This document shows, piece by piece, positions 840-15,839 of a stretch of DNA of 64,000 nt. The notes below the pieces were generated by a model. It did not search any database, had not been told where the DNA came from, and saw only the letters and a program-made list of their open reading frames with translations. Source of the stretch: Burkholderiales bacterium (GTDB taxonomy: Bacteria; Pseudomonadota; Gammaproteobacteria; Burkholderiales; Thiobacteraceae); contig JAIMAL010000016.1 in assembly GCA_023511995.1 (NCBI GenBank), forward strand, positions 1 through 64,000, written 5' to 3'. A program made the position numbers and the translations under genes. The stretch's first letter is position 1. Every line of letters begins with the position of its first letter.

Positions 840-1913
840 TCAATGCCGTTTCATGTCAGCCAAAAGATTGTTGCGATTCTTTTGCGCCTGCTCGTAGTCG
901 GGTTTGATGGTGAGCGCGCGTTCGTAAGCTTCCAGCGCCTCGTTATGGCGACCGAGCTGACGCAGCACCACGCCGCGGTTGCTTAAAGCCTCGACATAGT
1001 CCGGCTTGAGCGCGATGGCTTCAAGGATCGCCGCGCGCAGGGTTTCCTCATCGGCACCCCGCCGCAGCAGAGGACGGAATTCGAAACGTTCGTCCTGTCC
1101 CAGACACAGATAGAGCGTGCCGTCCACGGCGAGGCGCACCCGGTTGCAGGTGGCGCAGAAATGCTGGGAGATGGGCGTGATGAAACCCACACTGAAGCGG
1201 CCGTCGGGGCTTTGCAGGTAACGGGCGGGCCCGCCGCCGGGCAGGTTCCCCTCGATAAGGCCGAAGCGCGCCTTGAGGGCGGCTTTCACCGGCTGCAGAT
1301 CGAGATACTGGGCATTGCGCCCCGTCTCCCCCATGGGCATGGTTTCGATGAGACGCAGGATGAAACCCCGCGCCATGCAGAAGGCGACCATGTCATCGAT
1401 CTCGTCGTCATTGACGCCGCGCATGGCCACCATGTTGATCTTGATGGGGGAGAATCCCGCCGCCTGCGCCGCCTCCAGCCCGGCGAGGATGCGTCCCAGC
1501 ACGTCGCGGCCGGCAATGCGGGCAAGGCGCTCCGGGCGCAGGGAATCCAGGCTCACGTTGAGGCGACGCACGCCTGCCGCGCGCAGGGCATGGGCGTGCT
1601 TGGCAAGCTGGGTGGCGTTGGTGCTCAGGGAAAGGTCCTCGATGCCCGGCAGGCGCGAAAGGCGCGCGGCGAGCTCCGGCAGATGACGGCGCAGAAGCGG
1701 CTCGCCTCCGGTCAGGCGCACCCGCTTCAGCCCCAGGCTGGCGAAGGCACCGATGAGCCGCTCGATCTCATCGAAGGTGAGCCAGTGTTCCGGCTCCTCG
1801 AAGTCGCGGAAACCCTCCGGCATGCAATAGGTGCAGCGCAGATCGCAGCGATCCGTCACCGAAAGGCGCAGGTATTCGATGCGGCGGCCGAAACGGTCGG
1901 TAAGGGCATTCAT
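840..1913 (-). CDS. moaA: GTP 3',8-cyclase MoaA with its C-terminus replaced by a TPR repeat
   Basis: Radical-SAM enzyme of the first step of molybdenum cofactor synthesis (GTP to 3',8-cyclo-GTP). The SAM cluster motif CDLRCTYC and the second cluster motif CATCNRVRL...LYLC are both present. The match ends at about residue 310 (LRAAILEAIALKP). The last roughly 50 residues are instead a tetratricopeptide repeat (GVVLRQLGRHNEALEAYERA then LTIKPDYEQA). The conserved C-terminal Gly-Gly, which reaches into the active site in the family, is absent. I chose the start at 1913 because the longer frame to 1961 would run through a ModE-type operator. Either the gene is a recombination chimera or a functional moaA lies elsewhere. 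Confidence 0.88.
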   Translation of the reverse strand: MNALTDRFGRRIEYLRLSVTDRCDLRCTYCMPEGFRDFEEPEHWLTFDEIERLIGAFASLGLKRVRLTGGEPLLRRHLPELAARLSRLPGIEDLSLSTNATQLAKHAHALRAAGVRRLNVSLDSLRPERLARIAGRDVLGRILAGLEAAQAAGFSPIKINMVAMRGVNDDEIDDMVAFCMARGFILRLIETMPMGETGRNAQYLDLQPVKAALKARFGLIEGNLPGGGPARYLQSPDGRFSVGFITPISQHFCATCNRVRLAVDGTLYLCLGQDERFEFRPLLRRGADEETLRAAILEAIALKPDYVEALSNRGVVLRQLGRHNEALEAYERALTIKPDYEQAQKNRNNLLADMKRH

Positions 1914-1925
1914 GGCAATCCCCGC

Positions 1926-1947
1926 GTTATATTGCGGTGAATATAGC
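1926..1947. promoter_or_regulatory. ModE-type operator upstream of moaA
   Basis: GTTATATT-N6-AATATAGC is an 8-N6-8 inverted repeat with one mismatch at the outer end. This is the geometry of the E. coli ModE operator. It lies 12 bases upstream of the chosen moaA start and shares sequence with the box before mobB. Confidence 0.7.
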
Positions 1948-2076
1948 CGAGGGGGTAGCACACGGCAACCCCGGCCGCGGCAGTTCTTTTGCCCGTCCTT
2001 GGGGTTGGCGCAGGTTCCATGCCCCTGCGACGAAACGTCCGCTTACCCGCCGGGGCCAGCGTGCGGCGAGTTGGGT

Positions 2077-2082
2077 TAAAAT
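2077..2082 (+). promoter_or_regulatory. Possible -10 box for the Thx gene
   Basis: TAAAAT lies about 30 bases upstream of the ribosomal Thx start codon. No clear -35 is visible, so this is a weak call. Confidence 0.3.
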
Positions 2083-2112
2083 AACGATTTTTCCCTGTTG
2101 AGGAGGTTCATC

Positions 2113-2238
2113 ATGGGCAAAGGCGATCTGCGCACGCGGCGCGGCAAGATTTTCAACGGCTCCTATGGCGTGAGCCGGCCGCACAAGGCGAAAAAGAAAG
2201 CGCCGCAGACTGTTCCCTCCGCCACCAAGCGCAAGTGA
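2113..2238 (+). CDS. Small ribosomal subunit protein Thx
   Basis: A 41-residue basic protein beginning [20 protein letters not shown], the signature of the bacterial Thx family that binds at the top of the 30S head. A strong ribosome-binding site (GAGGAGG) sits 5-12 bases before the ATG, and an intrinsic terminator follows directly. It is monocistronic and too short for usual ORF filters. The lysine-rich C-terminus (HKAKKKAP then ATKRK) is typical. Confidence 0.9.
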
Positions 2239-2247
2239 CCCCTTCCG

Positions 2248-2276
2248 CGAAAGCCCCACCGGGGCTTTCGTTCTTT
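2248..2276 (+). terminator. Intrinsic terminator after Thx
   Basis: A 10-bp stem CGAAAGCCCC / GGGGCTTTCG with a 3-base loop is followed by TTCTTT. It separates Thx from the molybdenum cofactor operon. Confidence 0.9.
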
Positions 2277-2440
2277 GGGGAAGGTCAAACCTCCGCTAAC
2301 GTGGGATGGCCGGCCCGTCCTCGAACCACAAGCCTTCGTCGTGAAACCGGATCAACCCTTTCCGCGGCTTGCGGCTGCTGTCGTGTGGGCATGGGTTGCG
2401 CCAGCTAAGGGTGCTTGGCAGCCCGCAGGGGGACAAGCAC

Positions 2441-2468
2441 TTGCGGGGTTGGCGGCGCGCGTTATATC
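2441..2468 (+). promoter_or_regulatory. Candidate promoter of the mobB operon
   Basis: TTGCGG at 2441-2446 and TATATC at 2463-2468 are separated by 16 bases. The -10 lies inside the ModE palindrome, so bound ModE would block RNA polymerase. The predicted transcript would start only about 10 bases before the mobB ATG, in line with the lack of a ribosome-binding site there. Confidence 0.45.
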
Positions 2469-2482
2469 GTTCAGAATATAAC
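2461..2482. promoter_or_regulatory. ModE-type operator upstream of mobB
   Basis: GTTATATC-N6-AATATAAC is an 8-N6-8 inverted repeat with one mismatch next to the spacer, preceded by C as in the classical ModE consensus. It ends two bases before the mobB ATG. The operon encodes a ModE-like protein, so autoregulation is likely. Confidence 0.8.
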
Positions 2483-2484
2483 CC

Positions 2485-2994
2485 ATGGAGCGCGGGGCAA
2501 AGCGGGTTTTCGGCGTGGCTGGGTTCAGCGGCGCGGGCAAGACGACGCTGCTGGAAAAGCTGATTGCCCGCTTCGTGGCGCAGGGGTTGACGGTGGCCGT
2601 GATCAAACAGACCCATCATGATTTCGATCTCGACCAGCCGGGCAAGGATTCCTGGCGCCATCGCGCAGCCGGTGCGAGCGAGGTTTTGCTGGCTTCTGAC
2701 CGGCGATGGGCGCTGATGCATGAAGTGCGCGGTTCAGCACCGCCCACCCTCAAGGAGCAGGTGGCGCGGCTTTCCCCCTGTGATCTCGTCCTCCTGGAAG
2801 GCTACAAGCGGGAGCCGGTACCCAAGCTGGAGGTGCACCGGCCCGCCCTGGGCGCGGCTCTCCTGTATCCGGAGGATCCCCACATTCTGGCGCTGGCCTC
2901 GGATGAACCGGTGACGACGACGCTGCCTTGGTTCGCCCTGAACGATGTGCCCGCCATCGCCGATTTCATCCTTCAGCACGCGAGACCGATATGA
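2485..2994 (+). CDS. mobB: Molybdopterin-guanine dinucleotide biosynthesis adaptor MobB
   Basis: A 169-residue P-loop GTPase, close to the usual MobB length. Walker A is GFSGAGKTTL at residues 13-22, followed by the family block VAVIKQTHHDFDLD. MobB helps MobA form the guanine dinucleotide cofactor used by DMSO-reductase-family enzymes such as arsenite oxidase. No mobA is in the window. It is first in the operon and overlaps moeA (ATGA at 2991-2994). No Shine-Dalgarno sequence precedes the ATG because the ModE palindrome occupies that space. Confidence 0.92.
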   Translation: MERGAKRVFGVAGFSGAGKTTLLEKLIARFVAQGLTVAVIKQTHHDFDLDQPGKDSWRHRAAGASEVLLASDRRWALMHEVRGSAPPTLKEQVARLSPCDLVLLEGYKREPVPKLEVHRPALGAALLYPEDPHILALASDEPVTTTLPWFALNDVPAIADFILQHARPI

Positions 2995-4208
2995 ACGCTC
3001 CCCCGCTTTCCGTCGATGAGGCCCTCGATCGCCTGCTTGCCGCTGCGGCACCCATTGCCGGGGTGGAGACGGTGCCCACCCTGTCGGCCCTGGGGCGGGT
3101 TTTGGCTGTTTCGCAGGTTTCCGCCATCGCCGTGCCGCCCCTCGATAACAGCGCCATGGATGGCTATGCGGTGCGGGTGGCCGATCTTGCCGTCGAGGGG
3201 GATACCCGTCTGCCGGTGAGCCAGCGTATCTCCGCCGGCACGCTGGGGCAACCCCTGGTCCCCGGCACGGCAGCGCGCATTTTCACGGGCGCGCCCGTTC
3301 CCCCCGGCGCCGATGCGGTGGTAATGCAGGAACAGACCACGAGAGAGGGCGACAGCGTGGTCATCCACGGTCGGGTGGCGCCGGGGACCAGTATCCGGCG
3401 CGCCGGCGAGGACATTGCCGCGGGGGCGACGGTGTTGACCGCGGGCACACGGCTAGCCCCCCAGCATCTGGGCCTGGCCGCCTCGGTGGGGCTGGCGAGC
3501 CTGCCGGTGGTGCGGCGCCTGCGCGTGGCGACCTTCTTCACCGGGGATGAGCTGGTGAACCCCGGCGAGCCGCTCCCTGCGGGAAAAATCTACAATTCCA
3601 ACCGCTACACCGTGAACGCCCTGCTGGCCGGCCTCGGCTGCGAGGTGATTGACCTCGGCACGGTGGCCGATGATCTCGAAACCACGGTGCGCGTCCTCGC
3701 GGCGGCGGCGGAGCAGGCCGATGTGGTGCTGACCAGCGGCGGTGTGTCGGTGGGTGAGGCGGATTTCGTGAAGGCTGCGGTGGAACGGCTGGGGCGCCTG
3801 GATTTGTGGCGCATTGCGGTGAAGCCGGGCAAGCCCCTTGCCTTCGGTGAGGTGGCGGGCAAGCCCTTCCTGGGGCTGCCGGGTAATCCCGTTTCGGTGT
3901 TCGTCACCTGGTGTCTTTTTGCGCGGCCGTTTCTTTTGCGCCTGCAGGGGGTGATGGAGGTCATGCCGAAGGCCTGTTGGCTTCAGGCCGATTTCGACTG
4001 GCTGCGGCCGGACAAGCGCCGGGAATTCCTGCGGGCGCGCCGCGTGGTGGACACTGAGCCCCCCGGCCGCGTGGAAATCCATCCCCACCAGGGTTCGGGG
4101 GTGCTGACTTCCACCGTCTGGGCGGAGGGGCTGGTGGATGTGCCGGCGGCCACCCCCATCCGGCGGGGCGATTGGGTGCGTTTCATTCCTTTCGCGGAGT
4201 TGCGATGA
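2991..4208 (+). CDS. moeA: Molybdopterin molybdenumtransferase MoeA
   Basis: A 405-residue MoeA, normal length for the family. It inserts molybdate into adenylated molybdopterin. Diagnostic blocks are LDNSAMDGYAV, the GAPVPPGADAVV loop, TSGGVSVGEADF and the substrate-site motif GLPGNPVS. The ATG at 2991 overlaps the mobB stop and the 3' end overlaps moaD by four bases, so translation is probably coupled along the operon. Confidence 0.95.
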   Translation: MNAPPLSVDEALDRLLAAAAPIAGVETVPTLSALGRVLAVSQVSAIAVPPLDNSAMDGYAVRVADLAVEGDTRLPVSQRISAGTLGQPLVPGTAARIFTGAPVPPGADAVVMQEQTTREGDSVVIHGRVAPGTSIRRAGEDIAAGATVLTAGTRLAPQHLGLAASVGLASLPVVRRLRVATFFTGDELVNPGEPLPAGKIYNSNRYTVNALLAGLGCEVIDLGTVADDLETTVRVLAAAAEQADVVLTSGGVSVGEADFVKAAVERLGRLDLWRIAVKPGKPLAFGEVAGKPFLGLPGNPVSVFVTWCLFARPFLLRLQGVMEVMPKACWLQADFDWLRPDKRREFLRARRVVDTEPPGRVEIHPHQGSGVLTSTVWAEGLVDVPAATPIRRGDWVRFIPFAELR

Positions 4209-4459
4209 ACGTCCGGGTTTTGTATTTCGCCCGTCTGCGGGAGGCCTTTGGTCTGGCGGAGGAAGCGCTGAGCCTGCCGGGTGAGGCGGCCAGCGCGGCG
4301 GACTTGGTGGCGTTGCTGCGGGCGCGGGGCGGAGTGTGGGCACGGGAACTCGGTGAGCGTCCCTTCCGCGTGGCGGTGAATCAGGCGCTGGTGTCCCTCG
4401 AGGCGCCCCTCAAAGCCGGCGATGAAGTGGCGATCTTTCCGCCAGTGACGGGGGGATGA
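4205..4459 (+). CDS. moaD: Molybdopterin synthase small subunit MoaD
   Basis: An 84-residue ubiquitin-like sulfur carrier. It begins MNVRVLYFARLREA and ends in the essential Gly-Gly (FPPVTGG), where the thiocarboxylate forms. The start was taken at 4205 rather than upstream because it overlaps the moeA stop and gives the normal MoaD N-terminus. It overlaps moaE by four bases. MoaD and MoaE together convert cyclic pyranopterin monophosphate to molybdopterin. Confidence 0.93.
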   Translation: MNVRVLYFARLREAFGLAEEALSLPGEAASAADLVALLRARGGVWARELGERPFRVAVNQALVSLEAPLKAGDEVAIFPPVTGG

Positions 4460-4911
4460 GCATGGTGCGGGTGCAGCAAGCGGATTTCGACGTGGGCGCA
4501 GAGCTCGCGCGCCTGCGCGCGGACCGGCGCGACATCGGTGCCATTGCCGCCTTCGTCGGTCTGGTGCGCGACATGAGCGAAGGCAGCGAAGTGCGGGAAA
4601 TGGTGCTGGAACACTATCCGGCCATGACGCAGAAGGCGCTGGAGGAGATCGTTGCCGAGGCCCGGCGGCGCTGGGACATCGCCGATGCCCTGGTCATCCA
4701 CCGGGTGGGACGGCTGCTTCCCGCCGACCAGATCGTGCTGGTGGCGGTGAGCGGTGCACACCGGGGCGATGCCTTCGCCGCCTGCGAGTTCATCATGGAT
4801 TACCTCAAGACGCGGGCGCCGTTCTGGAAAAAGGAACAGACCCCGGCAGGGGCGCGCTGGGTGGAGGCCCGCGAGACGGACGAAGCGGCGGCGGCACGCT
4901 GGCAGAGGTGA
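4456..4911 (+). CDS. moaE: Molybdopterin synthase catalytic subunit MoaE
   Basis: A 151-residue MoaE. The family blocks AAFVGLVRD, LEHYPAMTQKALE, IHRVGRLLPAD, AVSGAHRGDAF and the active-site segment KTRAPFWKKE with its conserved lysines are all present. It overlaps moaD upstream, and its TGA shares one base with the modE ATG. The short C-terminal Ala/Arg tail is unremarkable. Confidence 0.95.
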   Translation: MSMVRVQQADFDVGAELARLRADRRDIGAIAAFVGLVRDMSEGSEVREMVLEHYPAMTQKALEEIVAEARRRWDIADALVIHRVGRLLPADQIVLVAVSGAHRGDAFAACEFIMDYLKTRAPFWKKEQTPAGARWVEARETDEAAAARWQR

Positions 4912-5255
4912 TGCAGCGGCCCCGTCTGCGCATCCTGCTGGGCAGTGCCAGTTCCCTCGGTCCGGGCAAGGTGGCACTGCTGGAAGCCATTGGAGAGCAC
5001 GGTTCCATTTCCGCCGCCGCGCGCAGCATGGGCATGTCCTACCGGCGGGCCTGGCTGCTGGTGGATGCCATGAACCGGGCCTTCCGCAAGCCCCTGGTGA
5101 CCACGGCCACCGGCGGCGCGCGCGGCGGCGGCGCCCAGCTCACCGACTTCGGCCGCGAAGTGCTGCGCCGTTACCGCGCCATGGAGGAAAAGGCAGAAAA
5201 AGCGCTCGCCGGCGATCTGCGCCGTTTCGACGACTGGCTGCGCAAGGCCCCGTGA
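4911..5255 (+). CDS. modE: ModE-type molybdate-responsive regulator, DNA-binding domain only
   Basis: A 114-residue winged-helix protein of the ModE N-terminal (LysR-like) family. The helix-turn-helix block reads GSISAAARSMGMSYRRAWLL and the wing follows with GGARGGGAQLTDFG. The two C-terminal TOBE/Mop molybdate-binding domains of E. coli ModE (about 260 residues) are missing, as in other short ModE proteins. How molybdate is sensed is therefore unclear. It lies in the cofactor operon and the two matching operators are within 3.5 kb. Confidence 0.88.
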   Translation: MQRPRLRILLGSASSLGPGKVALLEAIGEHGSISAAARSMGMSYRRAWLLVDAMNRAFRKPLVTTATGGARGGGAQLTDFGREVLRRYRAMEEKAEKALAGDLRRFDDWLRKAP

Positions 5256-5297: not shown

Positions 5298-5807
5298 ATG
5301 AAACCCCTCGTCCGAAGCCTGACTGTTCTTCTGCTGGCATGGGTGTTGCTGCCAGCCGCATCCGCCGCGCCCGGGTTGAAGCCGGTGACACCGGTGCAGG
5401 TGACGGCCGAGCGGGTGACCTATGTCAGCGGCGAGGATTTCGACACGGTGAAGACCCTCATCGAAGAGGCGCTCACCAGCCGGGGTCTGGTGGTCAACAA
5501 TGTCGCCCACATCGGCGACATGCTGGAGCGCACCGGGAAAGACCTGGGGGCAACCCGCCAGGTGTACCTGAAGGCGGAAGCCATCGAATTCTGCAGTGCC
5601 ACGGTGTCGCGCAAAATGATGGAGGCGGATCCCCATCACATCGTCTTCTGCCCCTACGTGATTGCCATTTACGTGCTGCCGCAGGCACCGCAGCAGACCT
5701 ATGTTTCCTTTCGCCGCCCCGCCGGCAGTGGTTCCCGCGCCGGGCGGAACACCTTACGCGAGGTGGAGCGGCTTTTGCGCGCCATCATCGAGGAGGCGCT
5801 GAGATGA
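5298..5807 (+). CDS. DUF302 family exported protein
   Basis: A 169-residue protein with a Sec signal peptide (LTVLLLAWVLLPAASAAPG, cleavage near residue 24). A DUF302-like domain follows, with the core FDTVKTLIEEALTSRGLVV and the later strand VFCPYVIAIY. DUF302 proteins are small periplasmic or membrane-linked proteins of unknown biochemical role. I chose the ATG at 5298, which has an AAGGAG site, over an in-frame TTG at 5280. It overlaps arsC by four bases, so it may act with the arsenic genes. Confidence 0.75.
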   Translation: MKPLVRSLTVLLLAWVLLPAASAAPGLKPVTPVQVTAERVTYVSGEDFDTVKTLIEEALTSRGLVVNNVAHIGDMLERTGKDLGATRQVYLKAEAIEFCSATVSRKMMEADPHHIVFCPYVIAIYVLPQAPQQTYVSFRRPAGSGSRAGRNTLREVERLLRAIIEEALR

Positions 5808-6212: not shown

Positions 6213-7529
6213 TCAATCGTTGAGGGAGAGTTTCTTCATCTTTTCCCACAGCGTCTTGCGGCTGATGCCGAGTGCTGCTGCGGTGCGGCCGATCTGGTGG
6301 CCGTGGCGGGCGAGCGCTTCTTTCAGATAGGCCCGTTCGCATTCGCGCAGATAATCATCGAGGGCGGTGAGGGCCGGGGCTTCCCCGCCGGTTTTTTCCT
6401 GGGGCGGGAAGAGGTCCCCGGCATCGATCAGGGGCGCCGCGCTGAGGATGCAGGCCCGCTCCAGGGTGTGCCGCAGCTCGCGCACATTGCCCGGCCAGTC
6501 ATAGGCAACCAGTGCCTGTTCCGCCGCCGGGGAAAGACTCTTGGCCGCTCCTCCGTGGCTTTGCGCATATTCCAGCAGAAAGCGGCGGGCAAGCCACAGA
6601 ATGTCCTCGCGGCGCTCCCGCAACGGCGGGATGCGCAACTGGATGACATGGATACGGTAGTAGAGGTCCTCGCGGAAGCTGCCCTGCTGCACCATGGTGC
6701 GCAGATCCCGATGGGTGGCGCAGATCAGGCGCACGTCCACCGGGATGGGGCGTTCGCCGCCCACGCGCACCACCTGGCGTTCCTGGATCACCCGCAACAG
6801 CTTCGCCTGCATGGACAAGGGCATGTCCCCCACCTCATCCAGCAGCAGGGTGCCGCCGTGGGCCTGCTCGAAAACGCCCCGCCTGCTGCGGGTGGCGCCG
6901 GTGAAGGCGCCTTTTTCGTGGCCGAAGAGTTCCGCTTCCAGAAGACTTTCCGTCAGGGCGGCGCAGTTGAGGGCGACGAAGGGCGTATCGGCGCCGGCCA
7001 GACGATGTAAGGCCCTGGCCACCACTTCCTTGCCCACGCCCGATTCGCCGGTGAGGAGCACGATCTTTGCCTCCCGCGCCAGGCGGGGCAGGATTTCGGC
7101 GATGCGGGTCATGGCGGGGGAGGGGCCGAGTTCCGGATGATCGGCTGTGGTCCGCCGGCAGGGTTCGCATAGCGCCCGCAGTTTGGCCACCAGCTCGTCG
7201 AGATCGAAGGGCTTGGTGATGTAGTCGCGGGCGCCCAGTTTCAGCAGGGTGACCGCCTGATCGATGCTGCCGTAGCCGGTGATGATGACCCAGGCCGGCA
7301 CCCTCGCCAGCCGCGAGGTCGCTTCGCGGAACAGGCTCACCCCGTCGCCATCGGGCAGGCGGATGTCGGAGAGCACCAGCGTATAGTCGCGCTCCGTCAG
7401 GGCGCGCAGTGCCTCGCCCGCGGTGCGGAACCAGTGGGTGGGCAGACCTTCCAGGGCAAAGCGGTCAACCAGGCTTTCACCCATGATGGAGTCATCCTCG
7501 ATGAGACAGAGCAGGGGTTGGCTGGTCAT
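6213..7529 (-). CDS. aioR: Sigma-54-dependent response regulator AioR
   Basis: A 438-residue NtrC-class regulator. The receiver domain (residues 1-125) has acidic residues in LIEDD and the phospho-acceptor Asp in LVLSDIRLPDGDG. The AAA+ domain has Walker A GESGVGKE and the sigma-54 contact loop GAFTGA. A C-terminal Fis-type helix-turn-helix reads IGRTAAALGISRKTLWEKMK. The start at 7529 overlaps the aioS stop. Together with AioX and AioS it should activate the sigma-54 promoter of aioBA. Without the aio context it would be called only a generic NtrC-type regulator. Confidence 0.9.
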   Translation of the reverse strand: MTSQPLLCLIEDDSIMGESLVDRFALEGLPTHWFRTAGEALRALTERDYTLVLSDIRLPDGDGVSLFREATSRLARVPAWVIITGYGSIDQAVTLLKLGARDYITKPFDLDELVAKLRALCEPCRRTTADHPELGPSPAMTRIAEILPRLAREAKIVLLTGESGVGKEVVARALHRLAGADTPFVALNCAALTESLLEAELFGHEKGAFTGATRSRRGVFEQAHGGTLLLDEVGDMPLSMQAKLLRVIQERQVVRVGGERPIPVDVRLICATHRDLRTMVQQGSFREDLYYRIHVIQLRIPPLRERREDILWLARRFLLEYAQSHGGAAKSLSPAAEQALVAYDWPGNVRELRHTLERACILSAAPLIDAGDLFPPQEKTGGEAPALTALDDYLRECERAYLKEALARHGHQIGRTAAALGISRKTLWEKMKKLSLND

Positions 7530-8926
7530 GATGTCTTGATGGGCAGAAAAAGTGTGAAACGGGTGAGGCCCGGCTCGCTCGTCACATCGATGCGGCCGTC
7601 GAGCTGGCGCACCAGCTGATAGACGATCCACAACCCCAGGCCGCGGCCTTCGCCTTCCTCCTCCACGAAGGGCTCGTAGAGATGCTCCAGACGCTTGGGC
7701 GGGATGGCCCGACCATCGTTTTCGATTTGGAGCAATAGCCCATCGGCCTGTGTGTCAAGCCGCAACGCGACACGCTTTTCCGCCGCCTGGCAGGCATTGA
7801 GCAGGAGATTGAGGAGAATCTGCCGCACCGGAGTGGCCGGCAGGGGCACAGGCTCGTTGAGGGCCACCGCCCAGTCGAGCTGCAGCCGGCCGCGCACCTG
7901 GGCGTGGATGAGGGTGCGCAGATCCGCCAGATCGGCCGGGGACAGGGGATGGGATTCCAGTTTCGCCTCCACCAGCAGCGCGCCCACTGTTTCGCGAATC
8001 TGGGTGAGGCCACGCTCGATCAGACCGAGGGTGCGTTCGGCGAGGGGGTCGCCCCGGCCATGGCGGCGATAGGTGCTGATGGCATTGAGCATGCCGCCCA
8101 AGGGATTGTTCACCTCATGGGCGATCCCCGCCGTCAGGCGCCCGATGGCCGCCAGGCGCTGCGTGGCAACCATCTGTCTTTCCAGGCGCTGCTTTTCCTC
8201 CAGCTCGAGGAGCATCGCCTGGAAGCGCCGCCCCAGAAGCCCGATCTCGTCCGCGCCCGCATCGAGCCGGCATTCGCTGGGGGAAAGGGGGCCGCGGCCG
8301 GCGCGGGAGAAGCAGTCGGCCAGACGCAAAAGGGGCACCGCCAGGGCATTGCCCGCGTACCAGCCGAGGGGCAGCAGGAGCAACAGCGCGGCAGCGGTGG
8401 CAATCAGGACCTGGCGCACGGTGGCATGGAAGCGGGGCAGCACCAGGTCGCGGTGATAGCCCATCACCACGCGTCCCAGCACGGTGCCATCCTCGGCGCG
8501 GATGGGTTGGTCGAGGAGAATCCATTCCCCCACCTCGTGCAGCGGCTTGCCCTCTGTCGCCACGGTGGCCTTGAGTTCGGGCACCGCGGCCACCGGGGTG
8601 AGGGTGCGGAAACGCCTGGGGTCACTCGCGGCGTAAATGCGTCCGCCACGGTCGATGACCACGAGGAAGCGGCGGTTTTCGCCCGCTTCCAGCGGTGTGC
8701 GCAGAATCTCGAAAGCGGTCCACGCATCATCGTGCAACAGCGCCGGGGCCAGGCTTCGCGCCACCACCCGGCCCAGGGCCGCGGCATTGGTTGCGAGCTG
8801 TTCCCGCGCATCCCGCCAGGCATGGGCGAGGAGAATGAGGGAGACGATGAGGGCGGTGACGACGATGACCAGGGAAAGCGCCAGGGGCACCTTGTGCCGG
8901 TAGGAAAGATCTCGCCACAGCTTCAT
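7526..8926 (-). CDS. aioS: Arsenite-responsive sensor histidine kinase AioS
   Basis: A 466-residue membrane kinase. TM1 is at about 13-34 ([20 protein letters not shown]), followed by a periplasmic sensor region of about 140 residues and TM2 ([19 protein letters not shown]). A HAMP-like linker leads to the phospho-acceptor H-box [15 protein letters not shown]. The ATP-binding N, G1 and G2 boxes are [20 protein letters not shown] and [12 protein letters not shown]. It overlaps aioX and aioR by four bases each. It probably receives the arsenite signal from periplasmic AioX and phosphorylates AioR. Confidence 0.9.
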
Positions 8927-9768
8927 GGCCGCTCCACCTGCCGCCGCGCCTCGCGGATACCGTCGAAAAGTCGGCTGTCGCCGGCGGTGAAACCATCCAG
9001 GTTGAGATGCCGCAGCAGACGGCGCCCCTCGGCGTCATCGCTCATGCCAAGCAGCACCGAGCGCAGGCGCAGCCTGTCCACTTCGTCCACGTGGGGCGCG
9101 GCCACCAGCGGCGGAAAGCCGAAGGGCGGCGAGCGGTGCACCACCCGCGTGCGGCTGGTGATCTCCGGATGCAGGCGCGCCAGCGTCTCATACACGTAGC
9201 CATCCACTGCGCCCGCGTCGGCAAACCCCGTGGCCACGGCTTCCACCACCTTGCGATGGGACCAGGTGAAGAAGGTTCGCCCGAAATAGCGTTGCGGGTC
9301 CACCCCCATGGCTCTCAGTTGGGTCTGGGGATAGAGCCAGCCGGAGTTGGAGAGGGGGTCGGAGTAGGCGAAGATGCGTCCCGCCAGATCGCGCAGGCTC
9401 TGGGTGACGGTGTCCTCGCGGGGCACGATGAGATAGGAACGGTAGCGGGGTTCACCCTGCCAGACGGGGACGGCCACCAGTCGCAGCCGCTTTTCCTCAC
9501 GCACGAAGGGGTAGCCGCAAATCCAGGCGAAATCGATGTTGCCTTCCATGAGCTCGCGCACGATCTGCCGGTAACTCGCCCGCTGCACGAAGTGCACGGG
9601 CTGATTCAGGCGCAAGCCCAGATAGGCGGCCCACTGATCGAGGAAGCCGATCTGATCGTCGAGGAAAACCGGAGTGGTGCCGATGCGCAGGGGCGGCTGC
9701 GCTGCGGCGGCGGAGACCAGGCAGGCAAGATAGAGGACGGCGATCCAGAAGGCGCGCAGCGGCGGCAT
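8923..9768 (-). CDS. aioX: Periplasmic arsenite-sensing protein AioX (PhnD/SBP fold)
   Basis: A 281-residue protein with a signal peptide ([17 protein letters not shown]) and a phosphate/phosphonate-binding-like (PhnD) fold: [13 protein letters not shown], then [13 protein letters not shown]. The mature part has a single cysteine, C84. AioX proteins bind arsenite through one conserved cysteine, so C84 is the candidate ligand residue. It is the first gene of the leftward aioXSR operon, divergent from aioBA. No ABC permease or ATPase is nearby, which supports a sensory rather than transport role. Confidence 0.88.
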
Positions 9769-9800
9769 GACCCGTTACCAAAGGGTGACGGCCCATGTTA

Positions 9801-9818
9801 CCGATACGAAACGATCGG
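9801..9818. promoter_or_regulatory. Palindrome in the aioX-aioB intergenic region, possible AioR site
   Basis: CCGAT-N8-ATCGG is a perfect 5-bp inverted repeat about 45 bases upstream of the aioB sigma-54 promoter. It could be an activator site for AioR, though it is close for a sigma-54 enhancer. Confidence 0.3.
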
Positions 9819-9863
9819 GGTCAAGGAGCGCGCCAACCCTTTGATTTGCCGAAAGCCGTCAGC

Positions 9864-9879
9864 TGGCACGCGGTTTGCC
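9864..9879 (+). promoter_or_regulatory. Sigma-54 (-24/-12) promoter of aioBA
   Basis: TGGCACG-CGGT-TTGCC matches the consensus TGGCACG-N4-TTGCW at all but the last base. The aioB ATG is about 60 bases downstream. The adjacent operon encodes the sigma-54 activator AioR, so activator and promoter type agree. Confidence 0.93.
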
Positions 9880-9939
9880 ACTGAGCCCTCGGGGCGAGCT
9901 GCGCCCCCTGGAAAAACGATTGCCAAAGGAGAGCCATCC

Positions 9940-10458
9940 ATGACTGACATTTCCCGCAGAACCTTCCTCAAGCTGGGCGGTGCCGCGGCAGCGGGCACCG
10001 TTGCCACGGTGGCGGTGCCGGGGGCGGCCGGGGCGGCCGAAAACGCCGAAGTGGGCCGCGTCACCCTGCCCTATCCCCACAAGGTGCTGGCCAAGGGTGC
10101 CGAGCTCAAGGTCAACGTACCCGTGAGCTTCCATTATCCGGACGCCGCATCCCCCTGCACCCTGGTGAAGCTGGGGCGGCCGGTTCCCGGCGGTGTCGGT
10201 CCAGACCGGGACATCGTGGCCTATAGCAGCCTGTGTACCCACATGGGGTGTCCGGTGACCTACGACACGGCGACCCGTACCTTCCGCTGTCCCTGTCACT
10301 ACAGCACCTTCGATGCGGAAATGGGGGGACAGATGGTCTGCGGCCAGGCCACCGAGGACCTGCCGCGCATCGTGCTGAAGCACGACGCGAAGACGGACAC
10401 GGTGACGGCCATTGCCGTCGAGGGGCTCATCTACGGCCGCCAGGCCAACGTGTTGTGA
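9940..10458 (+). CDS. aioB: Arsenite oxidase small (Rieske) subunit AioB
   Basis: A 172-residue Rieske protein with a Tat signal ([15 protein letters not shown]). The [2Fe-2S] motifs are CTHMGC and CPCHYS, giving ligands C99, H101, C117 and H120. C104 and C119 can form the bc1-type disulfide, which is absent from some arsenite oxidases such as that of Alcaligenes faecalis. A high-potential cluster is therefore likely. The subunit passes electrons from AioA to a periplasmic cytochrome and carries AioA through the Tat pathway. An AAAGGAGAG site precedes the ATG. Confidence 0.96.
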
Positions 10459-10469
10459 GGAGGTGAATC

Positions 10470-12956
10470 ATGAGCAAAGGTTCCGATCGTATCGTGTTGC
10501 CTCCGGTCAACGCGCAGAAGACCAACATGACCTGCCATTTCTGCATCGTGGGCTGCGGCTACCACGTCTATAAATGGCCGGAGAACGAGGAGGGCGGCCG
10601 GGCGCCACACCAGAATGCCCTCGGCTTGGATTTCCGCAAACAGCTTCCCCCCTTTGCCGTGACGCTCACGCCGGCGATGACCAATGTCATCACCGACCGG
10701 GACGGCAAGCGTTACCACATCATGGTCGTGCCGGACAAGGAATGTGTGGTGAACCAGGGCCTTTCCTCCACGCGCGGCGGCAAGATGGCCTCCTACATGT
10801 ACCAGCCGGAAGGGCTCACTAAGGAGCGCCTGGCCTATCCGAAACTTCATACGGGGGACCAGTGGCTGGACACCACCTGGGAGAAGGCGCTGGCCATTTA
10901 TGCCGGGGTGCACAAGGCCATCCTCGACCGGGAAGGTCCGGACTGGATCGGCTTCAACTGTTTCGATCACGGTGGAGCGGGAGGCGGTTTCGAAAACACC
11001 TGGGGCACCGGCAAGCTGATGTTTTCCGCCTTCCAGACCCCCTTCGTGCGCATCCACAACCGGCCGGCCTACAACTCCGAATGTCACGCCACACGCGACA
11101 TGGGCATCGGCGAACTCAACAATTCCTATGAGGATACGGAAATCGCCGACTGCATCGTCTCCGTGGGCGCCAACCAGTACGAGACGCAGACCAACTATTT
11201 CCTTGCCCATCTGCTGCCCAACATGCAGGGTGCGACCAAGGAAAAGAAAAAGCAGTTCTTCGCCAGGAACGAACCCATGCCCGATGCGCGCGTGGTGTTC
11301 ATCGATCCGCGGCGCACCCCCACCATCACCATCCTGGAGACCGCGGTGGGCAAGGACCGCATCCTCCATCTGGAACTGGAACCCGGTACCGATATTGCCC
11401 TCTTCAACGGCGTGTTCACCTACGTGGTGGAGCAGGGTTGGATCGACCGCGACTTCATTGCCAAGCACACCACGGGCTTCGATGAGGCGGTGCGGGCGAA
11501 CCGCATGAGTCTGGAAGAGACCAGCCGCATCACCGGTGTGCCGGTGGACAAGCTCAAGCAGTTCGCGGAATGGGCCTACAAGCCGAAGGCGCCGGGCTTC
11601 ATGAAACGCACCTGCCACACCTACGAAAAGGGCATCATCTGGGGCAATGACAATTATCTGATCCAGTCCGCCCTTCTGGATCTGGTGCTGGCCACCCACA
11701 ACGTGGGCCGACGCGGCACCGGTTGTGTGCGCATGGGTGGTCACCAGGAGGGCTACACGCGGCCTCCATATCCGGGCAAGAAGATGATCTACGTGGACAA
11801 GGAGATCATCGAAGGCCGCGGCCGCACCCTGACCTTCTGGGGCTGCAACAGTTTCCAGACCACCCTCAACGCGGAAGCCTACCGCAATGCCGTACTGCGC
11901 CGTTCGGAGATCGTCAAGGAAGCGCTGCGCAAGGCCCGCGGCGCGGACACCGACGGCCAGGTCAACGCCATCGTCGAGGCGGTGATGAACAAGGGTGGGC
12001 TGTTTGTGACCCTCATCGATCTCTATCCGACGATGATCATGGATGCCGCCCACGTGGCGCTGCCCGCCGCTCATCCCGGCGAGATGAATCTCACCTCGAT
12101 GAATGGCGAACGGCGGCTGCGCCTTTCGGAAAAATTCATGGACCCGCCGGGTGTGGCCAAGCCGGACTGTCTCATCGCCGCCGACATCGCCAACACCATG
12201 AAGGCGCTGTACGAGAAAGAGGGCAACAAGGCGATGGCCGCCCGTTTCTCGGGCTTCGACTGGAAGACGGAGGAGGATGCCTTCAACGATGGCTTCCGTC
12301 GCGCCGGCCAGCCTGGCGCCGGGCCCATCGACAGCCAGGGGGGACCCACTGGGCACCTGGCCACCTACGAGCGTCTGCGCAAGGCCGGCAACAACGGGGT
12401 GCAACTGCCGATCAAGGAGTACAAGGACGGCAAGCTGATTGGCACCCCGATGCTATACACCGACAACAAGTTCGACACCAAGGATGGCAAGGCGCGCTTC
12501 CTGCCGGCGCCGTGGCCGGGCCTGCCGCAGCCGGTGGCCCTGCAGAAGCAGAAGTACCGCTTCTACATCAACAACGGCCGGCTCAACGAGGTCTGGCAGA
12601 CCGGCTACCACAACAAGTACGATCCCCATGTGAAGGACCGCTACCCCATGGCCATCATCGAGCTCAATCCGCAGGATGCCAAGGAGTTGGGGGTGGTGCC
12701 CGGCGACATCGTGGAGATCTACAACGACTATGGGGCGACCTATGCCATGGCCTACCCTGACCCGGCGATCAAACGCAACCACACCTTCATGCAGTTTGGC
12801 TGGTTCAACGGCATCGTTGGCGATGTGGTGACCAACTGGACTGACCGCAACTACGTGCCCTACTACAAAGGGACGTGGGCGAACATCCGCAAGGTGGGCG
12901 GCTCCGACCAGTTCGCGCGCACGGTGTCCTTCAAGTCCCGCCGCTATCAGACCTGA
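10470..12956 (+). CDS. aioA: Arsenite oxidase large (molybdopterin) subunit AioA
   Basis: An 828-residue DMSO-reductase-family enzyme of the length usual for AioA. The N-terminal [3Fe-4S] motif is CHFCIVGC (C22, C25, C29), with the fourth ligand position lacking Cys (GLSSTRGG). The molybdenum domain contains [13 protein letters not shown] and [17 protein letters not shown]. It has no signal peptide and is presumably co-exported with AioB. The ribosome-binding site is GAGGAGGTG. It oxidises arsenite to arsenate in the periplasm and needs the bis-MGD cofactor made with MobB/MoeA from the neighbouring operon. Confidence 0.97.
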
Positions 12957-14310: not shown

Positions 14311-14595
14311 TCAGGATTTGCCGTAGTGGCGGGTGAGGTAATCGACGATCACAGGGACATCTTCCTGGGGAATGGGTGCCCCCATCACCTTGATCATCTT
14401 GTTCACCACGCCTTCCCAGCCCTTGCGGTCGAGGAAGGGGGAATTCATGGGAATGTAGTCGGTGCTGTGGCAGACCGCACAGTGGATGGCGACCTTGTCC
14501 TTGCCCGGGCCATCCTTGAGCTTGATCTGACTTTCGTCCGCCTGGGCGGCCAGGGGCAAAAGGAGCAGGGCAGCGAGGGCGGTGAACGTTTTCAT
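14311..14595 (-). CDS. sorB: Sulfite dehydrogenase cytochrome c subunit SorB
   Basis: A 94-residue protein with a signal peptide (FTALAALLLLPLAAQAD) and one c-type heme motif CAVCH. A downstream Met in MIKVMGAP is a likely axial ligand. Size and position directly behind sorA match SorB of the Starkeya-type SorAB enzyme, which takes electrons from the molybdenum centre to a periplasmic cytochrome c. The start at 14595 overlaps the sorA stop by four bases, so the two subunits are translationally coupled. Confidence 0.88.
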   Translation of the reverse strand: MKTFTALAALLLLPLAAQADESQIKLKDGPGKDKVAIHCAVCHSTDYIPMNSPFLDRKGWEGVVNKMIKVMGAPIPQEDVPVIVDYLTRHYGKS

Positions 14596-15839
14596 ACGGC
14601 CTCCACGTCGATGCGCTGAATCACGTTGTGATGATAGCCGGCGGGATTGGCGATCCACTGGAAGGTCTGCGTGGAACCGGCGGCATTGGTGGCTTTGGCG
14701 AGGATGCCGTAACGGCCCTTGCGCGGTTTGAAGCGATAGCTCCACGACCGCCAGGCGAAGTTGCCCAGATCGCGCCCCAGTTCAGCGGGCTGCCAGCTGC
14801 GACCTCCATCCGTGGAGACCTCGACCAGACGGATGCCCCGGCCGCCATCCCAAGCGATGCCGCGCACCTCGGTCCACTGGCCAGCCCGGATTTTCTGGTT
14901 GGGTTCCAGATTGGTGATGAGGGAGTTCACCACCATTTCGGTGATGGGCGTGTTGGGTCCACCCGGTACTTCCTGGCTGATGAAGCGGTCGGTCACCGGG
15001 AATTTGCCCATGGGCACGCGGTAGGCCGTTTTCATCCAGAATCCATCGTAGGGTTTGCTCACCACATTGATCTCGGAAATCATCTTCACCCAGTAAGTGG
15101 CCGTCCACCCCGGCACCACCAGGCGGAGTGGGTAGCCGTTGTGATAGGGCAACGGCTCCCCGTTCATCTCCCAGGCGAGCAGGGTGTTTTCATCCAGTGC
15201 CTTCCACACCGGCAGGCTCTTGATGAAATCGGGGGTCTTCTCCAGCACAGGCCGGTCCAGGCCGTCGTAAACCACTTCCAGGGCTTCCTTGCGCAGGCGC
15301 GCGCGGTTGAGCACATCGCGCAGCCGAACACCCCGCCACCGGGCCTGGCCCATGGCGCCATAGCCCCACTCGATGCCCGCGACATGGGGCTGCACGAGTC
15401 CCCGTCGATTGCCGGAACACTGGCAGACGGCGACGAGTTCCACCTGTTCAAACTCCCGTTTGAGTTGTGGCAGGCTCAGGCTCAAGGGGTTCTCCACCGC
15501 ATCGCCGCCAATCTTGAGGACGTAATTGGTCTCGGCGAGGCGCGGATCGTTGGCCTCCGGCAGGTCGGCGAGGTGCCAGCGGACGAAGAAGGCATCGTTG
15601 GGTGTGAAGTCGCTGCGGTCAAAGAGCGCCACCGGCGTCTCGAAATTGGCGGGCCGCCAGGTGCGCTTGATCAGTGGCCGTTTGCCCGGCAGCGTGGCCA
15701 TGACCGACTGTTCCACATCACCTGCTGGCAGCGTCGGGACGGGGATGTCGAAAAGCCCCTCGGCCCGTCCCTGGGGCAGCCACAGCCCTGCCGCACCGAG
15801 GGCAAGCCCACGGGTGAGAAATTCCCTGCGTGTGGTCAT
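14592..15839 (-). CDS. sorA: Sulfite dehydrogenase molybdenum subunit SorA
   Basis: A 415-residue sulfite-oxidase-family protein with a Tat signal (TTRREFLTRGLALGAAG). The molybdenum-ligand cysteine lies in the block VAVCQCSGNRRG. Further family blocks are VVPGWTATYWVKM and the dimerisation domain near EVSTDGGRSWQPA. It oxidises sulfite to sulfate in the periplasm, using the Mo-molybdopterin cofactor without a nucleotide. It has a strong ribosome-binding site (GAGGAGG) and a sigma-70 promoter about 200 bases upstream. Confidence 0.92.
   Translation of the reverse strand: MTTRREFLTRGLALGAAGLWLPQGRAEGLFDIPVPTLPAGDVEQSVMATLPGKRPLIKRTWRPANFETPVALFDRSDFTPNDAFFVRWHLADLPEANDPRLAETNYVLKIGGDAVENPLSLSLPQLKREFEQVELVAVCQCSGNRRGLVQPHVAGIEWGYGAMGQARWRGVRLRDVLNRARLRKEALEVVYDGLDRPVLEKTPDFIKSLPVWKALDENTLLAWEMNGEPLPYHNGYPLRLVVPGWTATYWVKMISEINVVSKPYDGFWMKTAYRVPMGKFPVTDRFISQEVPGGPNTPITEMVVNSLITNLEPNQKIRAGQWTEVRGIAWDGGRGIRLVEVSTDGGRSWQPAELGRDLGNFAWRSWSYRFKPRKGRYGILAKATNAAGSTQTFQWIANPAGYHHNVIQRIDVEAV

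Follow-up and report, generated by a model that had tools for sequence, protein, structure and literature searches.

A short ModE without TOBE domains and its predicted boxes at three molybdenum operons in a Thiobacteraceae genome

The window, which was the whole stretch of DNA that was analysed (64 kb), contained a cofactor operon, mobB-moeA-moaD-moaE-modE, whose last gene encoded a short, TOBE-less ModE. We consider it probable that this protein is a repressor of the ModE(S) type acting at three operons, and that it follows the availability of the molybdenum cofactor, which would combine end-product feedback with negative autoregulation. Each of the three entry points of molybdenum metabolism in this small genome would in this way have a TOBE-less ModE, and both the operon and the boxes are conserved. 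The features of the window are listed in Table 1.

Table 1. Positions of the predicted ModE boxes, the cofactor genes and neighbouring features in the window
Feature	Position	Strand	Remarks
moaA, GTP 3',8-cyclase	843..1913; stop codon 840-842	-	TIGR02666 positions 1-314 of 336
ModE box 1 (predicted), GTTATATTGCGGTGAATATAGC	1926..1947	no strand	12 nt from moaA start
Promoter-like site for moaA, TTGCCG-17-TATATT	1940..1968	-	sigma-70-like consensus match only
thx, 30S ribosomal protein THX	2113..2238	+	TIGR04560, PF17070; between the two boxes
ModE box 2 (predicted), GTTATATCGTTCAGAATATAAC	2461..2482	no strand	end 2 nt before mobB ATG
mobB, first gene of the operon	2485..2994	+	PF03205, TIGR00176
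moeA, molybdopterin molybdotransferase	2991..4208	+	PF03453, PF00994, PF03454; overlaps mobB stop
moaD, molybdopterin synthase small subunit	4205..4459	+	TIGR01682
moaE, molybdopterin synthase large subunit	4456..4911	+	PF02391, NF007959
modE, short ModE	4908..5255	+	winged helix-turn-helix only
Exported 169-aa DUF302-like protein (predicted)	5298-5807	+	PF03625 just below cut-off; follows modE
Arsenite-oxidase cluster	6213-12956		large subunit 10470-12956, TIGR02693; Rieske small subunit, TIGR02694
SorA-like sulfite dehydrogenase catalytic subunit	14592-15839	-	451 bits, below 600-bit equivalog cut-off

The original prediction had placed two matching palindromes before moaA and mobB and had read them as ModE operators. 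Both palindromes were found, and the operator reading of these predicted sites was backed by their sequence and conservation. When the window was searched with up to three mismatches, boxes 1 and 2 were the only two places matched, each on both strands, and shuffled sequences gave a chance expectation of 0.07 matches. The genome (2.5 Mb in 44 contigs, 99.98% complete) was scanned by patterns rather than by a matrix. At two or fewer mismatches, the scan gave four places, which were box 1, box 2, C4:96052 and C4:59677, and a reversed-pattern control in the same scan gave 0 matches. The site at C4:96052, GTTATATCCAGATTGGTATAAC, was located on another contig, had one mismatch, and ended 37 nt before the likely start codon (ATG) of modA, which was followed downstream by modB and then modC. 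The site at C4:59677 was a weak one with two mismatches. Occurrence of the palindrome at random sites of the genome had been named as the finding that would speak against the original prediction; the near-perfect boxes numbered only three genome-wide, each just upstream of an operon for molybdenum uptake or cofactor synthesis. The regulon had also been described as local. The boxes at moaA and mobB agreed with this description, but the third box, before modABC, was located on another contig. Therefore, the predicted regulon comprised moaA, mobB-moeA-moaD-moaE-modE, and modABC, and was not purely local.

The E. coli ModE consensus is ATCGNTATATA-N6-TATATANCGAT, as quoted in PMC545781, and box 1 matched it at the core positions. 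All three sites had the TATAT and ATATA cores of the E. coli-type ModE box, CGNTATATA-N6-TATATANCG, correctly spaced, and the modA box had one mismatch. It is extremely improbable that the boxes are chance palindromes or functionless relics. Chance was rejected because of the low expectation in the window and the position of every near-perfect genome site at a molybdenum operon, and the boxes were kept in relatives whose flanking DNA had diverged. In the congener G001, box 2 occupied the same position.

The genes from mobB to modE were tightly packed, with stop and start codons overlapping by a few bases at each junction. The thx gene between the two boxes had been missed in the original prediction. 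In the genus of the window, thx was flanked by the two boxes, one per promoter, and the location of thx between moaA and mobB was found only in this genus. The divergent moaA and mobB of the sister genus had one box in common, and no thx lay between them. Comparison of the two genera suggests that the arrival of thx was accompanied by a duplication of the box.

The -10 hexamer (1940-1945) of the moaA promoter-like site was located inside box 1, and in G001 the modA box covered the -10 of a TTGACA-18-TATATT site. Between box 2 and the ATG of mobB there was almost no space for a leader. In the genome of the window itself, the promoters of mobB and modA matched the sigma-70 consensus poorly. Because the boxes fell on the promoter core, we infer that ModE binding would cause repression. 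Full-length E. coli ModE acts as a repressor of modABCD and an activator of moaABCDE (PMC11980592), and repression of moaA in the present genome is therefore not certain. However, an E. coli-like arrangement, in which the short ModE would repress modABC yet activate the cofactor genes from their boxes, is highly improbable, since activator sites are normally located upstream of the -35 hexamer, whereas box 1 overlies the -10 hexamer of the putative moaA promoter and box 2 directly adjoins the start codon of mobB.

The ModE of the window was 115 aa long when read from the GTG at 4908, or 114 aa from the ATG at 4911. It was composed of the winged helix-turn-helix (HTH) domain alone, in agreement with the original prediction that the mobB operon encodes a ModE with only the DNA-binding domain. 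It matched PF00126 with 34.8 bits (cut-off, 26.6) and TIGR00637 with 95.7 bits, slightly below the cut-off of 98.5. In a full-length ModE, the HTH is followed by two TOBE domains in the C-terminal part, and the window protein had neither. The best solved homologue was PDB 2ijl, named 'Molybdenum-binding transcriptional repressor' (E 2.9e-31), which we take to be the A. tumefaciens short ModE, Atu2564. The E. coli ModE structures (PDB 1b9m and 1o7l) were next, with an E of 2.3e-13.

In the 60 relatives that were compared, the short ModE was common, and its gene was often the last in a mobB-moeA-moaD-moaE-modE operon divergent from moaA. The ModE lengths were bimodal, with short proteins of 112-141 aa and full-length proteins of 256-269 aa. 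In a ModE tree of 111 columns only, with some long full-length branches, the short and full-length proteins were split cleanly with a support of 100/100, and the 2ijl protein and the window ModE were both placed among the short ones. When 80 short-ModE loci from named records were searched for boxes, counted at a minimum of 12 of the 14 fixed positions, 36 boxes were found against 0.33 expected. Of these 36 boxes, 19 were located within 350 bp upstream of modA, among them two before modA in Rhizobium subbaraonis and Mycoplana. Of 113 short ModEs, all or nearly all shared Pro19, Lys21, Arg47, Leu50, Leu51, and Tyr89, which were not conserved to this degree in 9 full-length ones, and Gly18 and Gly20 were likewise invariant in the short set. 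These residues are candidates only for a role in following cofactor status.

A single copy of ModE was present in the genome, and the only TOBE domain was the tail of ModC. The idea of a further protein with Mop or TOBE as a partner was rejected for this genome, as TOBE was confined to ModC. Molybdate might instead be sensed by the TOBE tail of ModC (by Mop in some relatives), which would signal to ModE(S) by contact. Such an arrangement would be consistent with ModC as the sole TOBE protein and with the HTH-less TOBE proteins found in the mod operon of some relatives, such as G003. It is very unlikely, however, given several near-complete relatives that have boxes and a short ModE but in which neither TOBE nor Mop was detectable. 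The short ModE and a box were present in G002, G005, G025, G027, G052, and G057, G052 being one complete contig. No match to PF03459 (TOBE) was found at E 0.01 in these six genomes, and no match to Mop at E 10 in G002, G005, G027, G052, and G057, with a weak match (0.34) in G025. Therefore, barring a TOBE partner so divergent that it escapes detection, no such partner can be a general requirement of the clade, and the TOBE-free relatives argue against any dependence of the short-ModE clade on the classic molybdate-binding domain. An in-frame fusion of the short ModE to a partner that could hint at its ligand was also considered and rejected, as no upstream extension in the examined loci matched the neighbouring proteins. 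A TOBE-like match (E 0.005) in a 68-aa frame of G001, located upstream of modA, was discarded as well, because the one mod-strand frame read contained stop codons and showed no clear Mop protein.

The signal proposed for the window ModE was taken from Agrobacterium. In the work of Hoffmann and colleagues, the A. tumefaciens ModE(S), which consists of the DNA-binding domain only, reportedly needs the cofactor genes to repress modA and is said to respond to cofactor status, not to molybdate itself. The finished cofactor, rather than molybdate, is what close relatives reportedly sense, so that the window system looks like an end-product feedback switch. In the proposed mechanism, a ModE(S) dimer would bind the E. 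coli-type palindrome CGNTATAT-N8-ATATANCG at the promoters of moaA, mobB-moeA-moaD-moaE-modE, and modABC, and the bound protein would block RNA polymerase. This block would lower molybdate uptake, cofactor synthesis, and the level of ModE(S) itself. The original prediction that ModE controls its own operon is likewise supported by box sequence and conservation. By analogy with A. tumefaciens ModE(S), repression would follow molybdenum-cofactor availability rather than TOBE-bound molybdate, so that plentiful cofactor would shut off uptake, synthesis, and modE together. Binding as a dimer, the repressive effect, and the response to cofactor are probable but inferred parts of this mechanism. The Agrobacterium cofactor-status study (Hoffmann et al. 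2016, Mol Microbiol 101:809) is cited in PMC7294313.

A repressor that needs no signal would also be compatible with the HTH-only protein. ModE(S) would then be always bound, and its autoregulated level would hold the expression of the three operons steady at a moderate level. The lack of a ligand domain and the location of modE in an operon under its own probable control are consistent with this alternative, and truncated E. coli ModE variants reportedly repress without molybdate. It is nevertheless unlikely, because the Agrobacterium relative, a member of the same clade, is said to need cofactor synthesis for repression. Within the cofactor-following repressor favoured here, direct sensing of the cofactor or a late precursor by ModE(S) itself is a tentative possibility; the site would be formed in the winged helix by clade-specific residues such as the GPGK segment (residues 18-21) and Arg47, and such feedback might occur in many Proteobacteria.

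The window protein is of the Agrobacterium type, a known but under-studied kind of repressor. The two proteins share the HTH-only composition, a similar length, and the same clade, and both systems have E. coli-type boxes, with two of them before modA in related Rhizobiaceae loci. However, modE adjoins modABC in the Rhizobiaceae loci that were compared, whereas it ends the cofactor operon in the window, and the window genome has boxes before moaA and mobB as well. When compared with full-length E. coli ModE, the window ModE had a homologous winged helix, the same box with 6-nt spacing, and modABC and moa as predicted targets, but it lacked both molybdate-binding TOBE domains and belonged to a separate clade. 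Single-domain ModEs of Desulfovibrio were noted in Rodionov et al. 2004, where the mechanism of molybdenum sensing was called unclear (PMC545781). They resemble the window ModE in having the DNA-binding domain only. The box predicted for Desulfovibrio, CGGTCACG-N14-CGTGACCG, differs from the E. coli-type box of the window, and the Desulfovibrio mod clusters, unlike the window, contain an integrase-Mop fusion gene (PMC545781). What the present genome adds to the known kind is a predicted three-operon regulon that includes cofactor synthesis and modE itself, together with the TOBE-free relatives. How a bare winged helix might follow cofactor status becomes testable in a simple system of three promoters.

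The MoaA protein, which is the only copy in the genome, carried at its C-terminus (window 840-1010, - strand) a TPR motif at residues 308-340 instead of the Gly-Gly tail that its relatives retain. This tail is important for catalysis. The MoaA proteins of relatives that were readable to the end, including that of an 83%-identical congener, all finished in Gly-Gly, and the moaA of G009 carried a stop codon. A literature search on the MoaA Gly-Gly motif gave no papers. The TPR DNA of moaA was unique in the genome, and the homology with G001 broke near window position 1000. Because this break falls near the beginning of the contig, at a distance of about 1 kb, it may reflect either a true MoaA-TPR fusion or an assembly join.

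A homologue of the DUF302-like gene that follows modE adjoined modE or modC in many relatives, and this gene may therefore belong to molybdenum metabolism. It was followed by an LMWPc-family (arsenate-reductase-like) gene, the arsenite-oxidase cluster, and the SorA-like gene. Molybdenum-cofactor enzymes include sulfite dehydrogenase and the large subunit of arsenite oxidase, and this organism thus clearly needs the cofactor. Beside the arsenite-oxidase genes, a divergent response regulator, a histidine kinase, and a phosphonate-type binding protein were encoded, which resemble AioR, AioS, and AioX. Elsewhere, a molybdopterin oxidoreductase frame (G000:C1:263627-265276, - strand) contained an internal TGA, which is perhaps a selenocysteine codon or the mark of a pseudogene.
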